Shown here one piece after another: positions 6,775-42,381 of a stretch of DNA of 64,000 bases (positions within the stretch are counted from its first letter, which is position 1; every line of letters begins with the position of its first letter). Below the pieces are notes generated by a model. That model saw nothing but the letters and a program-made list of their open reading frames with translations, was not told the origin of the DNA and made no database searches. A program made the translations under genes and the position numbers. Source of the stretch: Hymenobacter oligotrophus (lineage in GTDB: Bacteria > Bacteroidota > Bacteroidia > Cytophagales > Hymenobacteraceae); the NCBI RefSeq assembly GCF_003574965.1, contig NZ_CP032317.1:1798001-1862000 (forward strand). The letters run 5' to 3'.

Positions 6775-7171
6775 GCGGTGGTTGGGCGCGCAATGATACG
6801 CACGCGGCGGCAGTTTTTAAGCGGAAGGGTCGGGCAGAATACGGCGGAAGCGTAGTTTAAGCCAACAACCACCAACCAACCACCTGCGGTTTAAACCACC
6901 TGACTGCCACCGTTACCGGCGCCCTCAATGGAGGCACCGCGTTGTAAGGTGCTTACTGCCAACGCCCCTGCCGAAAACACCAAGCCTGCCACAACTACCA
7001 ATGGCACCGCAGCTCCGCCCTAGCGGCTGGGCCGGGGCAGCGCTGCAGCTTAGCAGGCGCGGTTTTTTCTGGCTTTTGGCAAAAGCCTATCGGCCGTTTC
7101 TGTTGTTGGTTACGTACCTTCTGCTGTAACCCCTCACTGTCGGGCTTCCGAGCCCCATTGCTTTCTGTGCC
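6775..7171. other. 397-bp gap without a recognisable gene
   Basis: The space between the divergent polyprenyl synthase and hydrolase genes. The only structure I see is a small perfect hairpin (7071-7077 with 7081-7087, 3-nt loop) preceded by a T run. A near-consensus -7 element (TATCATTG on the minus strand, about 6791-6798) could serve the synthase gene. The frames that stay open have no coding character. Confidence 0.5.
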
Positions 7172-38044: not shown

Positions 38045-38518
38045 TTATGCGGCCAAACCGCCCGCCGGCGGCGTTTCGTTGGTAAGGAATTTCTGCGCCA
38101 GCTTCGAGAAGCTTTGCTGGTCTTTAATCAGGTACTCGTCGTAGCGGGTAGGGTCCCAGATTTCGCAGCGGTTGCCCAGGCCCACAATAATGGCTTCCTT
38201 CTCGATGCCGGCATAGCGCAGCATGGTGCGCGGCAAGCCAAAGCGCCCGATGTTGTCGAGCTCCACCTCCGTCATGCCCCGGAAGAAGTTACGCTGAAAC
38301 TGGCGGTACTCCTCGTTGAACTCGTCGAGAGCCATTACCTTCTCGTGAATCACGCGCCACGCCGACCTAGGGTACAACACCAAGCAAGGCTCGAACCCCC
38401 GCACCAGCACCAATTGGTTGCCCGACTCCTCGGGCAAGTTGGCCTTCACCTTCGCCGGCAACACGAGCCGCCCTTTCGGGTCGAGCTTGCATTCGTATTC
38501 GCCGGAGAGCAGGTTCAT
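38045..38518 (-). CDS. mraZ: transcriptional regulator MraZ
   Basis: A 157-aa protein with two SpoVT/AbrB-like halves: GEYECKLDPKGRLVLPAKVK (about 6-25) and TEVELDNIGRFGLPRTMLRYAGI (about 84-106), each with the conserved D-x-x-G-R core. MraZ is the first gene of the dcw operon and in other bacteria binds repeated TGG boxes in its own promoter. Three such boxes with a 10-bp period are present upstream (38609-38637). Confidence 0.96.
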   Translation of the reverse strand: MNLLSGEYECKLDPKGRLVLPAKVKANLPEESGNQLVLVRGFEPCLVLYPRSAWRVIHEKVMALDEFNEEYRQFQRNFFRGMTEVELDNIGRFGLPRTMLRYAGIEKEAIIVGLGNRCEIWDPTRYDEYLIKDQQSFSKLAQKFLTNETPPAGGLAA

Positions 38519-38579
38519 AGGTTAGGTGCAAAAAGAAGCCGTAGCTTTGAAGGTGGGGTAAGCGCACGAGGTCGGTAAG

Positions 38580-38609
38580 CAAAAGTACGCAAGCCCCTCG
38601 AAAAGGCAA
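38580..38609 (-). promoter_or_regulatory. dcw cluster promoter (mraZ)
   Basis: On the minus strand: TTG (38609-38607), 19 nt, TACTTTTG (38587-38580), an exact TAnnTTTG match. The predicted transcript start near 38573 gives a leader of about 55 nt. I see no comparable promoter in the gaps further down the cluster. Confidence 0.75.
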
Positions 38610-38637
38610 CCACCATTTACCATTTTCTACCACCACC
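38609..38637 (-). promoter_or_regulatory. candidate MraZ operator (three TGGT boxes, 10-bp period)
   Basis: On the minus strand TGGT occurs with its T at 38632, 38622 and 38612, exactly 10 bp apart. Additional TGG triplets adjoin the first and the last box. The last box touches the -33 TTG. The spacing matches the known MraZ recognition pattern (direct TGG repeats one helical turn apart), here with T in place of the fourth G of the E. coli box. Confidence 0.7.
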
Positions 38638-38782
38638 GGAAATGACCATTTAGAGCCTACTGGGGCACTTTTGGCGAAAATCAGACCGAGCTTGGAGCAG
38701 AAAGTGGAAAACGTTCATTGCCCCCTTGCCATATTGGCAGCCAGCACTTGCTGCACCTAGGGCGAAGCCTAAATCATGTACT

Positions 38783-38817
38783 GCCCGAGCATTTATGTAT
38801 ACCGCTTATGCTCGGGC
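38783..38817. promoter_or_regulatory. inverted repeat at the promoter of the metal-uptake genes
   Basis: Perfect 10-bp arms (38783-38792 with 38808-38817) and a 15-nt spacer. They end 8 bp before a perfect -7 element TATCTTTG (38826-38833), so they cover the -33 position, where no TTG is seen. No gene ends here on the plus strand, so a terminator is unlikely and an operator for an activator or repressor is the better reading. Confidence 0.5.
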
Positions 38818-38837
38818 CTTCTGCGTATCTTTGTGCT

Positions 38838-39302
38838 GTGAAGAAACGCTCGTTGTTCCTGCGCCTCACTAGCTTGTGGCTGGCCTTGTTGGTGCTCACC
38901 TCGTCGGTGGGCCTCACGGTGCAGCAGCACACTTGCTTTGCCAGTGGCCAAACCCAACGAGCCGTTGTACTGACGCCGCACCACGTGTGCGCCCCCAAAG
39001 CTGACGTAGCCGATGCGGCAAGCTGCAACAAGCCCGCACCGGTTGCCAAAGCCGAGGTAAAAGACGGCTGCTGCGACTTCAGTGCTCATCACCACAAGGT
39101 AGACACCTCGGCATCGGCAGGGCCGCTACTAAAAGTGGTAACGCCAGCCCTGCTAGCCGTGCTGCCTCAGCCCATGTGGGCACCGCAGGCACCGGCGGTA
39201 GCCGCCGTAGCGCCCCAGCTTACCTGGCACGCGGGCGATACGTCTCCCCCCCTTCGAGCGGGCCGCGCTTTGCTGGCCTTCAAGTGCACGCTCAACGTCT
39301 AG
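38838..39302 (+). CDS. HYC_CC_PP-type secreted Cys/His-rich protein
   Basis: A 154-aa exported protein that starts at a GTG at 38838; a reading from further upstream adds non-signal sequence. Signal peptide residues 1-25 (LTSLWLALLVLTSSVGL). It then shows H31-T-C33, C51, C63, a C78-C79 pair followed by His84-86, and a Pro-Pro near the end. This order fits the HYC_CC_PP family seen in Cytophagales next to TonB receptors. A metal-binding periplasmic role is likely. The exact -7 box lies only 5 nt upstream, so the transcript may be nearly leaderless. Head of a three-gene set with the TonB receptor and HMA protein. Confidence 0.75.
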   Translation: MKKRSLFLRLTSLWLALLVLTSSVGLTVQQHTCFASGQTQRAVVLTPHHVCAPKADVADAASCNKPAPVAKAEVKDGCCDFSAHHHKVDTSASAGPLLKVVTPALLAVLPQPMWAPQAPAVAAVAPQLTWHAGDTSPPLRAGRALLAFKCTLNV

Positions 39303-39403
39303 GTTAGGCTCTTTTTCGGCAATGCTGGCACCGTGCGGTGCCGGCGGGTATGGTCTTGCACGGCCATCACCCACCCCTCCCGAAGACCTAACCTCCTGAC
39401 TTT

Positions 39404-41749
39404 ATGCTTGCTTCGATGCGAAGTCGCGCTCTGCGCCTCGTGCCCATGCTCCTGCTAGGTGCTGCGCCGGCCGCTTTCGCCCAATCATCTGCCGCACCGC
39501 AACCGGTACGCGGCGAAGTAACCGACGGCGCCTCGCGCGCCGCACTGCCCGGCGCCGTTGTGCGCTGGCTCGGCACCGACCAGGCCACTACCACCGACGA
39601 CAAAGGCTTGTTCGTGCTGCCCTACTCTACCAAGGCTACCTCGGCCCGCTTGGTGGTAAATGCCTTAGGCTACCGTCCCGACACGGTTCAGGCGGCCGGC
39701 TACGTGCGCGTGCCTCTCAAAGGCAGCGCCGAGTTGCAGGAGGTAGTAATTACGGAGCGTGCTCCTAGCTATTCCTCGCTCACGCCCACCAACACGCAGG
39801 TAATCAGTGCGCAAGACCTAACTAAGTCGGCGTGCTGCAACCTGGCCGAAAGTTTCGAGACCAATGCTTCGGTGGAAGTGTCGACGACCGACGCGGCTTC
39901 GGGCGCCAAGCAGATTCAGCTGCTGGGCCTCGATGGCTCCTACTCGCTGCTGACGGTGGACAACTTGCCCGCTCTGCGCGGCCTTTCTACCCCGTACCGC
40001 CTCAACTACCTAGCCGGCCCTTGGATCGAGAGCATCGACATCATCAAGGGCATGGGCTCGGTGGTGAACGGTTACGAGTCGATTTCGGGGCAAGTGAACG
40101 TGCGGCTGAAGGAGCCCGACGTCACGGATCGTCTGCTCTTCAATGCCTACGTCAACGACTTCGGCAAATTCGACCTGAACCTCAACACCTCGGCCCGCAT
40201 CAACCCCAAGCTGAGCACCGCGCTGCTGCTGCACGCCGACCACCTAGGCAACCGAATCGACCGCAACAAAGACGGTTTTATGGACTTGCCCTTGGCCACG
40301 CAGTACAACGTGATGAACAAGTGGAAGTACAAGTCGGGCAAGGCAGTAGTGAGCGAGCTGGGCGTGGGCGCGTTGCGCGAAACCCGCCTAGGTGGCCAAA
40401 TGGGTTTTAAGCAGGATGAGGTTGGCAACCCCAACTACGGCATCACGCAGGAAACCAACCGCTACACAGCCTACAACAAAACCTCTTATACCTGGCCCAG
40501 CAAGCCTTATCAGAGCCTAGGCTTGCTGCTTTCGGGTACCAGCCACAAGTTCAACTCCACGTTTGGGGGCAGCACCTACGGTTTGCCTTTCGATGTGGTG
40601 CTGCAAGAGGGCAACCTGTTCCGCCCGCAGCGCCAGTACGATGGCACGCAACGCACCGGATTGGCTACGCTGCTGTTTCAGAGCGCCATTGGCAACACCT
40701 CGCACGTGTACCGCCTAGGTGCCAGCTACCTCTACGACGATTACCAGGAGTACCTGCGTACCGGCCCGAACGCGGCCGAAACGCCCGCGCAAACCCGCCA
40801 ACGCGAACTGCGGGCCCGCACCGAGCGCGTGCCCGGCGCGTTTGCCGAGTACACCTACCAAAACTCGCGCAACCTCACGGTGGTGGCCGGCGCCCGCGCC
40901 GATTACCACAACCTGTACGGCTGGTTTCTGACGCCGCGCCTGAACGTAAAATACGACCCCACCACCAGCACCGTGCTGCGCTTGGCCGCCGGCCGCGGCT
41001 ACCGCGTGGCCAACCCCATTGCCGAAAACTCGGGCATGCTCGTAAGCAGCCGCCCCTTCAGCATTGCCAACAACCTGCAGTCCGAGCGGGCCTGGAACGT
41101 AGGCGGCTCGTTGTCGCAGTACTTCACGGTGGCTGGGCGGCAGGCAACGTTTGTGGCCGACTACTACCACACCATTTTTCAGAACCAGGTAGTGGCCGAC
41201 CCGTACTCGCTGCCTTCGATGCTCATCATCGGCAACCTAGCGCCAGGCGGCCGCTCGTTCTCGCGCAGCTTTCAGGCCGAGGTGCAGGTAGAGCCCGTGA
41301 AAGGACTACACGCCAAGGCGGCTTACAAGTGGCTCGATGTGCGAACCAGCTACGGCAACCGCTTGCTACCCCGGCCGCTTACGCCGCAGCACCGCTTGTT
41401 TGCCAACGTGGGCTACGCCAGCGCTTACGACAAGTGGCGCGCCGACCTTACGGCCCAATGGTACGGCAAGCGCCCCTACGCCCCCGGCCTGGCCCACCAA
41501 CACGACGCCGGCAGCGCCGGTCCGGTGTTGCGCTACTCGCCGCGCTTCGCTACCCTGAACGCGCAGCTCACCCGTGCCTTTAAGCGCTTCGATGTGTACG
41601 CCGGCGTCGAGAACCTCAGCAATTACCGCCAGCGCAACCCCATTGATGCGGCCGCACAGCCTTTCGGCCCCATGTTTGATGCTGCTATGAACTGGGGCCC
41701 CATCTATGGGCGTTTAACTTACCTAGGCATGCGCTTCCGCCTGGAATAG
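39404..41749 (+). CDS. TonB-dependent outer-membrane receptor, probably for metal (copper)
   Basis: A 781-aa receptor with a signal peptide (1-26), a carboxypeptidase-regulatory-like domain (about 34-110, VRGEVTDGASRAALPGAVV), a plug domain (about 118-235, with GLSTPYRLNYLAGPWIESIDIIKGMGSVVNGYESISGQVNV) and a 22-strand barrel ending in the aromatic residue pattern YLGMRFRLE. The plug carries an exposed C144-C145 pair in TKSACCNLAESFE, typical of the heavy-metal subgroup. It imports its substrate by TonB-ExbBD energy; its neighbours (Cys/His-rich protein upstream, HMA protein downstream) point to copper or another soft metal. Confidence 0.9.
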   Translation: MLASMRSRALRLVPMLLLGAAPAAFAQSSAAPQPVRGEVTDGASRAALPGAVVRWLGTDQATTTDDKGLFVLPYSTKATSARLVVNALGYRPDTVQAAGYVRVPLKGSAELQEVVITERAPSYSSLTPTNTQVISAQDLTKSACCNLAESFETNASVEVSTTDAASGAKQIQLLGLDGSYSLLTVDNLPALRGLSTPYRLNYLAGPWIESIDIIKGMGSVVNGYESISGQVNVRLKEPDVTDRLLFNAYVNDFGKFDLNLNTSARINPKLSTALLLHADHLGNRIDRNKDGFMDLPLATQYNVMNKWKYKSGKAVVSELGVGALRETRLGGQMGFKQDEVGNPNYGITQETNRYTAYNKTSYTWPSKPYQSLGLLLSGTSHKFNSTFGGSTYGLPFDVVLQEGNLFRPQRQYDGTQRTGLATLLFQSAIGNTSHVYRLGASYLYDDYQEYLRTGPNAAETPAQTRQRELRARTERVPGAFAEYTYQNSRNLTVVAGARADYHNLYGWFLTPRLNVKYDPTTSTVLRLAAGRGYRVANPIAENSGMLVSSRPFSIANNLQSERAWNVGGSLSQYFTVAGRQATFVADYYHTIFQNQVVADPYSLPSMLIIGNLAPGGRSFSRSFQAEVQVEPVKGLHAKAAYKWLDVRTSYGNRLLPRPLTPQHRLFANVGYASAYDKWRADLTAQWYGKRPYAPGLAHQHDAGSAGPVLRYSPRFATLNAQLTRAFKRFDVYAGVENLSNYRQRNPIDAAAQPFGPMFDAAMNWGPIYGRLTYLGMRFRLE

Positions 41750-41751
41750 TG

Positions 41752-41880
41752 GTTGGTATCTGGTATTGAGTACTTGGTACTGAGTATGTAGTACTCAGCA
41801 AATAGCAATAAGCACTTGGTAGTTAGAACCGTGCACTAAGTACTCAATACAAAATACTCAATACTGACTACCAAGTATCC
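41752..41880. repeat. intergenic mirrored-word hairpin between the TonB receptor and the HMA gene
   Basis: The left half repeats TTGGTAT, TTGAGTAC, TTGGTACTGAGTA. The right half carries AAGTACTCAATAC, AATACTCAATACTGACTACCAAGTATCC, i.e. the reverse complement. It is clearly AT-richer than its surroundings. Same layout as the dcw gaps but a different word. Confidence 0.7.
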
Positions 41881-41919
41881 CACACAGAACTTCTCTCCTC
41901 TTTTCTTCCTTTTCTAGTC

Positions 41920-42303
41920 ATGAAAACCTTCCGCGCACTTTCCTTTGGCCTCTTAGCCTTTGTTGGCACCCAGTTTTCGCAAGCGCAGGATACCAAGCCC
42001 AAGGCCAAGCAAAAGGCCGGCACCGAGCAGGTAACCATCAAAACTTCGGCCGTGTGCGACATGTGCAAAGCCCGCCTCGAAAAATCATTGGCCTACGAAA
42101 AAGGCGTGCAGGCTGCCGTGCTAAACGTGCCCACCCAAATGCTGACGGTTACCTATCGCACCGATAAAACCAACGCCGACGCACTGCGCTCGGCCGTAGT
42201 GGCCACCGGCTACGATGCCGATACGAAAACCGCCAACGCCAAGGCCTACGAGCGCCTGCCCGAGTGCTGCAAAAAAACCAACGCTGTGCACTCTGCCAAT
42301 TAA
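41920..42303 (+). CDS. periplasmic heavy-metal-associated (HMA) domain protein
   Basis: A 127-aa exported protein: signal peptide 1-22, then one HMA (CopZ/Atx1-like) fold with the metal-binding C46-D-M-C49 in TSAVCDMCKARLEKSL, the beta-strand VLNVPTQMLTVTYR, and a second C116-C117 pair near the C-terminus. It probably receives a soft metal ion from the upstream TonB receptor. It is separated from the receptor gene by a repeat-rich 170-bp gap and followed by a 68-bp palindrome that ends transcription. Confidence 0.9.
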   Translation: MKTFRALSFGLLAFVGTQFSQAQDTKPKAKQKAGTEQVTIKTSAVCDMCKARLEKSLAYEKGVQAAVLNVPTQMLTVTYRTDKTNADALRSAVVATGYDADTKTANAKAYERLPECCKKTNAVHSAN

Positions 42304-42313
42304 GCCTGTGTGC

Positions 42314-42381
42314 CAACGCCCCGCTTACGCAAAACGCCGCCCTAGGTACCTAGGGCGGCGTTTTGCGTAAGCGGGGCGTTG
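42314..42381. terminator. 68-bp perfect palindrome, bidirectional terminator
   Basis: Bases 42314-42347 are the exact reverse complement of 42348-42381, without a spacer. The centre is two head-to-head CCTAGG palindromes (around 42341 and 42349). It lies between convergent genes ending at 42303 and 42385, each arm holding a TTTT/AAAA tract. Confidence 0.85.

Follow-up and report, generated by a model that had tools for sequence, protein, structure and literature searches.

The stretch analyzed here (64,000 nucleotides [nt] of Hymenobacter oligotrophus, contig NZ_CP032317.1; hereafter, the window) carries an operon for three exported proteins, i.e., a small HYC_CC_PP-like Cys-rich protein (HYC), a TonB-dependent receptor with two adjacent cysteines (C-C) in its plug, and an HMA-domain protein. 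Our comparisons make it fairly likely that this operon is an envelope copper-handling unit within a copper regulon. Its promoter carries a tandem direct repeat. A repeat of this kind also precedes copA genes, at a similar distance from the -7 box, and, with more variation, copZ, Csp-like, RND-cluster, and CDF-exporter genes. Together with conserved C-C pairs in all three products, this suggests that the proteins help the envelope to cope with copper instead of just importing it.

Direct repeat at the operon promoter and at copper genes

The promoter elements and the genes of the operon are the following (positions in the window).

38772-38781, plus strand: direct-repeat box 1 (AATCATGTAC), a conserved column block in alignments A4/A5
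38793-38802, plus strand: direct-repeat box 2 (TTATGTATAC), 21 bp from box 1
38826-38833, plus strand: -7 element TATCTTTG, 4 nt before the GTG at 38838
38838-39302, plus strand: HYC_CC_PP-like exported Cys-rich protein (NCBIfam NF047658), 154 amino acids (aa), GTG start, near-leaderless
39404-41749, plus strand: TonB-dependent receptor (Pfam Plug and TonB_dep_Rec), 781 aa, C144-C145 in the plug
41920-42303, plus strand: exported HMA-domain protein, 127 aa, CxxC (46-49) and C-terminal C-C (116-117)

The two boxes form a tandem direct repeat of the approximate form AATCCTGCAC / ATTCTGTACC, spaced by 21 to 22 bp, the end of which lies some 23 nt ahead of the -7 box; box 2 reads CATTCTGTAC in several relatives. 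An earlier note on this DNA had described a perfect -7 element just past an inverted repeat (see below) and 5 nt ahead of the GTG; the element is as described, and the spacing measures 4 nt. TANNTTTG sits 4 to 5 nt before the start in 11/11 loci read by eye and 4 to 8 nt ahead of it in 22/22 further family loci, in all of which a CC-plug receptor follows. Judging from the distance between the -7 box and the start codon, the almost leaderless arrangement claimed earlier appears to be conserved at 33/33 loci.

The full pattern TGYAC-N16/17-TRTAC-N22/25-TANNTTTG was found once per genome and always at the HYC promoter in seven of the eight genus genomes, with one control hit. A pattern comprising the boxes only, searched in 200 family genomes, matched in seven of them and in no control; five of the seven matches were at HYC or CDF genes (three HYC sites and two orthologous CDF-exporter sites, one of them in this genome), and the other two, L058 and L060, seemed to have nothing to do with copper and were set aside.

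Two promoter models were also applied. Model R1, a sequence-only model built from 17 HYC-type promoters and never shown copA, was run on the eight genus genomes. Its top eight matches were the HYC promoters themselves, and the next 13 (E ≤0.06) comprised seven copA, one copZ, and two CDF promoters plus three matches to the -7 half only. All 10 further matches that span the boxes precede copA, copZ, or CDF genes, and copA was the best non-HYC match in six of the eight genomes. Model R2, in which six copA promoters were added to those of R1, was run on 150 family genomes. Its four matches in this genome at E <0.02 were the promoters of HYC, of the chromosomal copA, of a copA on contig C3, and of the CDF gene. 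Over all genomes there were 130 matches in 67/150, of which 116 lie before copper/metal genes (HYC, 37; copA, 52; copZ, 16; Csp-like, 4; CDF, 3; HYC-like with RND, 3; cupredoxin, 1) and 14 before none. Classification was via DNA plus tblastn for 79 matches (65 copper/metal, 14 none) and via loci or coordinates beside known HYC/copA genes for 51.

As to the targets, the product of the chromosomal copA matched the copper-translocating ATPase family TIGR01511 at 635.6 bits (cut-off, 397). The label "Csp-like" is used because the corresponding target missed TIGR04401 (53.5 versus 100 bits) and passed the cut-off of DUF326. At some copA promoters, a second box pair was seen directly upstream of the first (L097, 8910-8958; G003:C22:491970-492014; G006:C40:293719-293762).

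The spacing within the promoters is in favor of a shared element: the distance from box 2 to TTTG was 26 nt in all 13 parsed copA sites (of 31) and 24 to 27 nt in all 11 parsed HYC sites (of 15). In L041 and L043, the boxes lie about 11 bp, i.e., one helical turn, nearer to the -7 box.

A number of observations weigh against a copper regulon. Box 2 is degenerate in this genome (TGTATAC), as it is off-pattern in L005, L008, and L010, and the R1 matches in this genome were weak (copA, E 0.025 and 0.057; CDF, E 0.049). The R2 tallies include many orthologous matches and a copA count that was partly trained and do not represent independent events; minus the 21 training rows (15 HYC, 6 copA), 95/109 matches lie before copper/metal genes. 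The 14/130 R2 matches that precede no reference copper gene are those at L162, L175, L183, L187, L189, L190, L191, L200, L206, L216, L220, L225, L228, and L232, and the R2 signal is almost confined to genera g1 and g5. The spacing rule parsed no more than the copA and HYC sites given above, and it took whichever TTTG came closest to 27 or 16, a choice biased toward agreement. At the 12 copZ sites the distance was 24 to 27 nt in nine and 33 nt in three, and none of the four Csp-like sites could be parsed. Finally, the CDF exporters, ZitB-like at a score below cut-off, may move zinc instead of copper.

Cysteine pairs and the direction of copper traffic

The earlier note had pointed to an adjacent cysteine pair in each of the three products, and the pairs are indeed present at positions 78-79 (HYC), 144-145 (receptor), and 116-117 (HMA protein). 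Each is invariant across its alignment (HYC, 11/11 rows; HMA, 11/11; receptor, 12/12), including two receptor rows with merely 37 to 39% identity to the window receptor; in the HYC alignment, the PP is invariant as well. C144 and C145 are the sole cysteines among the 781 residues of the window receptor. The same holds for the pair in nine of the 12 receptor rows, with one extra cysteine in each of the other three, as counted on rows from some of which the signal peptide is missing.

The receptor exceeds the Pfam cut-offs for both Plug (43.9 versus 23.9 bits) and TonB_dep_Rec (84.2 versus 27 bits), as does the HMA protein for PF00403 (35 bits; cut-off, 24.8), its CxxC being formed by C46 and C49. 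HYC shares with the HYC_CC_PP family its small size, its export, and the C-C and PP, and differs from it in a score (24.2 bits, E 3.7e-5) under the 28-bit family cut-off. HYC has a match in 8/8 genus genomes; of the 56 HYC matches from a separate search, the stronger 30 were read. No paper under the HYC_CC_PP name was found in the paper library searched. The genome is one of 4.19 Mb from the Hymenobacter group, and the closest named relative found was Solirubrum puertoriconensis (receptor identity, 96%). Profile searches against solved structures matched the receptor only to generic TonB receptors and SusC-type N-terminal domains, and the top match for HYC was at E 0.88. The AlphaFold model of the receptor (mean predicted local distance difference test score, 58.2; residues 108 to 244, <50) is of too low confidence to place the C-C pair.

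What the operon does with the metal is a separate matter. The earlier note had called it a metal-uptake set. The soft metal part is supported, with copper as the most likely candidate given the C-C conservation and a promoter signal that is also found at copA, copZ, Csp-like, and RND-cluster genes; the uptake part is weakened, because an exporter-like placement of the element predicts induction alongside export genes. Since the element lies close to where it does at copA, the same regulatory sign as for copA is probable. In a copper-acquisition reading, the receptor would bring in copper itself or a chelate of it to supply cuproenzymes, and the regulator would cover both supply and export. TonB-dependent receptors that import copper do exist: OprC of Pseudomonas binds copper through a plug cysteine, Cys143 (PMC8610252), and CrtA of Bordetella is a TonB receptor tied to copper import (PMC12914433). 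An inward hand-over would also agree with a plug that bears a C-C pair and with an HMA protein in the periplasm. Nonetheless, we consider acquisition rather unlikely, as a signal common to copA, copZ, Csp-like, and RND-cluster genes predicts induction by copper excess, not by starvation. Moreover, the window receptor has adjacent cysteines and neither the CxxxM nor the HxM motif of OprC, a motif that an OprC-like receptor from another member of the Bacteroidota, Bizionia, is reported to have (PMC11213822). CrtA is reported to be without conserved Cys or Met, in contrast to the invariant C-C of the window-type receptors.

Improbable to a further degree is an indirect role in copper defense, in which the receptor would import another substrate, e.g., iron. 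The precedent is CciT of Caulobacter, described as an Fe-importing receptor required for copper resistance (PMC12004943). The partner of CciT is an oxygenase. In the present operon, the invariant C-C and the HMA and HYC proteins encoded alongside the receptor point to a thiophilic metal.

Inverted repeat and surroundings of the operon

The promoter contains a second symmetric feature, interleaved with the boxes.

38783-38792, no strand: left arm of the inverted repeat, 10 bp, between the two boxes
38808-38817, no strand: right arm, 10 bp, over the -33 region

The inverted repeat of the earlier note is present. Its arms are 100% complementary and pair the inter-box spacer with the one that runs from box 2 to the -7 element. 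The note had proposed a search for this repeat upstream of other metal genes, and it turned out to be single copy in this genome. The window has 12 perfect inverted repeats of at least 10 bp with loops of 3 to 30, where 20 block shuffles averaged 1.8; with 12 present, such repeats are not rare in the window, and the promoter placement of this one is still unusual. Its letters differ in all 10 relatives compared, two of which (L014 and L009) keep imperfect versions as judged by eye. Dyads made of other letters, with scores of 7 to 9, surround box 2 in L004, L006, L010, L044, and L045. In the 17 A4 promoters, spacer complementarity averaged 6.06, compared to 4.70 with swapped spacers (0/2,000 as good) and 4.72 with shuffled ones (0/500). 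With 12 lineage representatives, 1/500 shuffles was as good, and with the 11 remaining without the window, 22/500. No such excess was found in 11 held-out HYC promoters (302/1,000 swaps as good), 11 copA promoters (863), or six copZ promoters (905).

The inverted repeat was therefore rejected as a signal shared with copper genes, its letters not being conserved, its copy being single, and copA and copZ showing no dyad excess; the shared signal is the tandem direct repeat instead. The earlier note would have given up its proposal if there were no metal response and neither the cysteine pairs nor the inverted repeat were conserved: the pairs are, the letters of the repeat are not, and the dyad is kept in near promoters only. 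From these comparisons, the repeat may be a real secondary feature of the near relatives. That the dyad around box 2 acts as an operator or as a DNA or RNA hairpin, alone or with the direct repeat, is suggested by its perfect arms over -33, its uniqueness in the genome, and the A4 complementarity beyond swaps and shuffles. We nevertheless regard this as very unlikely in view of the unconserved letters, the 12 comparable repeats within the window, and the lack of excess in the held-out HYC, copA, and copZ promoters. The copper-regulon model, for its part, leaves this dyad unexplained, which counts against it.

Two further features flank the operon.

38045-38518, minus strand: mraZ, divergent neighbor (Pfam MraZ, 103.7 bits; synteny)
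42314-42381, no strand: perfect 68-bp palindrome, 3' of the operon, between convergent genes

The statement that no regulator gene is adjacent did not hold up: mraZ, a DNA-binding regulator gene, is divergent from the operon, and a LytTR response regulator is encoded 0.9 kb downstream. The latter was discarded as the controller, as it was seen in L002 to L009 and not found in L010. The divergent mraZ-rsmH arrangement is found at all g1 loci, 10/10 g6 loci, and about half of the g5 loci examined, a synteny (window 38045-38838) that ties the metal operon to the cell division cluster. In the g6 HYC promoters (L048 to L057), GTGG/AAGTGG repeats lie over -33, between HYC and the divergent mraZ, and replace the direct repeat. 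The AAGTGG-type repeats are putative MraZ sites, and they could, with the synteny, suggest that MraZ regulates the operon; this is hardly to be expected, since the element conserved in g1 and g5 is the direct repeat common to copA genes that are unlinked.

The 68-bp palindrome is probably a two-way terminator. L009 has a perfect 48-bp palindrome (6804-6851) with other letters in the same place and with the same center (CCTAGGTACCTAGG), so that pairing seems to have been kept between the window and L009 while the letters differ; no palindromes of >10 bp were found within 400 nt in the eight other relatives checked. The gap between the receptor and HMA genes (41750-41915) contains TACTTGGTA/GTACTCA-like repeats with a strong fold (-43.4 kcal/mol), pieces of which recur at five further places in the genome (seven rows).

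A candidate regulator in trans

The probable regulator would act in trans; it is a member of the AraC family whose N-terminal domain looks CopZ-like. In four of the seven copper-cluster regions fetched, namely, L136 (contig C3 of this genome), L137, L138, and L139, copA and a cupredoxin gene are followed by the gene for a protein of 207 to 211 aa. The C3 copy scores above cut-off for both HTH_18 (65.3 versus 33.6 bits) and HTH_AraC (53.7 versus 26.6 bits). Its first 80 residues are predicted to fold as beta-alpha-beta-beta-alpha-beta, with a CxxC opening the first helix, and the model superimposes on CopZ (6ff2_A) with a Z score of 8.8 and a root mean square deviation of 2.0 over 64 residues; Foldseek alone gave CsoZ at E 0.1. 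Proteins of the AraC family use two direct-repeat sites next to the promoter, spaced by about 21 bp (I1-I2 in AraC itself). A chromosomal type of paralogue, 45 to 49% identical, is present in 8/8 genus genomes. A gene for a Met/His-rich exported protein was seen near it in L235, L236, and L237 (four regions read); L237 also has a Csp-like gene, convergent to the paralogue, that is preceded by an R2 site.

Contig C3 (L136, G000:C3; 31.6 kb), perhaps a plasmid or island, combines a second copA, a cupredoxin gene, and the AraC/CopZ-like regulator; also encoded there are an outer-membrane efflux protein and a protein with a heavy-metal-binding domain.

The assignment of this regulator has to be set against the following. 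Pfam HMA (PF00403) gave no match in either the C3 or the chromosomal copy, comparing profiles with the HMA protein of the window gave a weak match (E 0.13), and other HMA domains also gave Z scores of about 8, which may reflect a common fold. There are five matches to the regulator in this genome, the chromosomal paralogue being 49% identical to the C3 copy, and no obvious copper gene was seen beside that paralogue (L234). The pairing of the protein with the repeat is drawn from linkage, domain makeup, and geometry. As to its distribution, a search of 60 genomes matched in 60/60 at E ≤0.001, with the weakest matches resembling ordinary AraC proteins.

If the copper-regulon reading holds, copper would load the CopZ-like domain of the AraC-family protein, which would then occupy both boxes beside the promoter and activate the almost leaderless message. 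With copper in excess, all three products of the operon (HYC protein, CC-plug receptor, and periplasmic HMA protein) would increase along with CopA, and these three would hand copper between their thiol pairs in the envelope. The thiol-based hand-over from the outer membrane to the periplasm proposed in the earlier note would be compatible with such a scheme. More tentatively, it is possible that the CopZ-like/AraC fusion senses copper in Hymenobacter-type bacteria and places the CC-plug receptor in the excess regulon for detoxification, with copper captured at the outer membrane or released through it, and not for uptake.

Taken singly, the components are all of known kinds. Copper-response regulons such as those of CueR, CsoR, CopY, or CusRS have a similar set of targets (CopA, CopZ, storage, efflux); here, in contrast, the element is a direct repeat of 21 to 22 bp, the probable regulator is AraC/CopZ-like, and the targets include a TonB receptor operon. 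AraC-family activators have in common with our candidate the HTH_18 domain and the paired direct repeats near the promoter; the N-terminal domain of AraC is sugar binding, whereas that of the candidate is modeled as CopZ/HMA-like. Among the open-literature matches listed, none dealt with an AraC/CopZ-like copper regulator, with the direct repeat, or with the combination of such a regulator and a TonB receptor that has just one C-C pair and shares the switch of a copper exporter; the letters of the CC-plug sequence were not found there.

With an operator, a candidate sensor, and a list of targets at hand, copper sensing in this bacterial family becomes directly testable. If true, a TonB receptor under the switch of a copper exporter would change the role that is assumed for such receptors.

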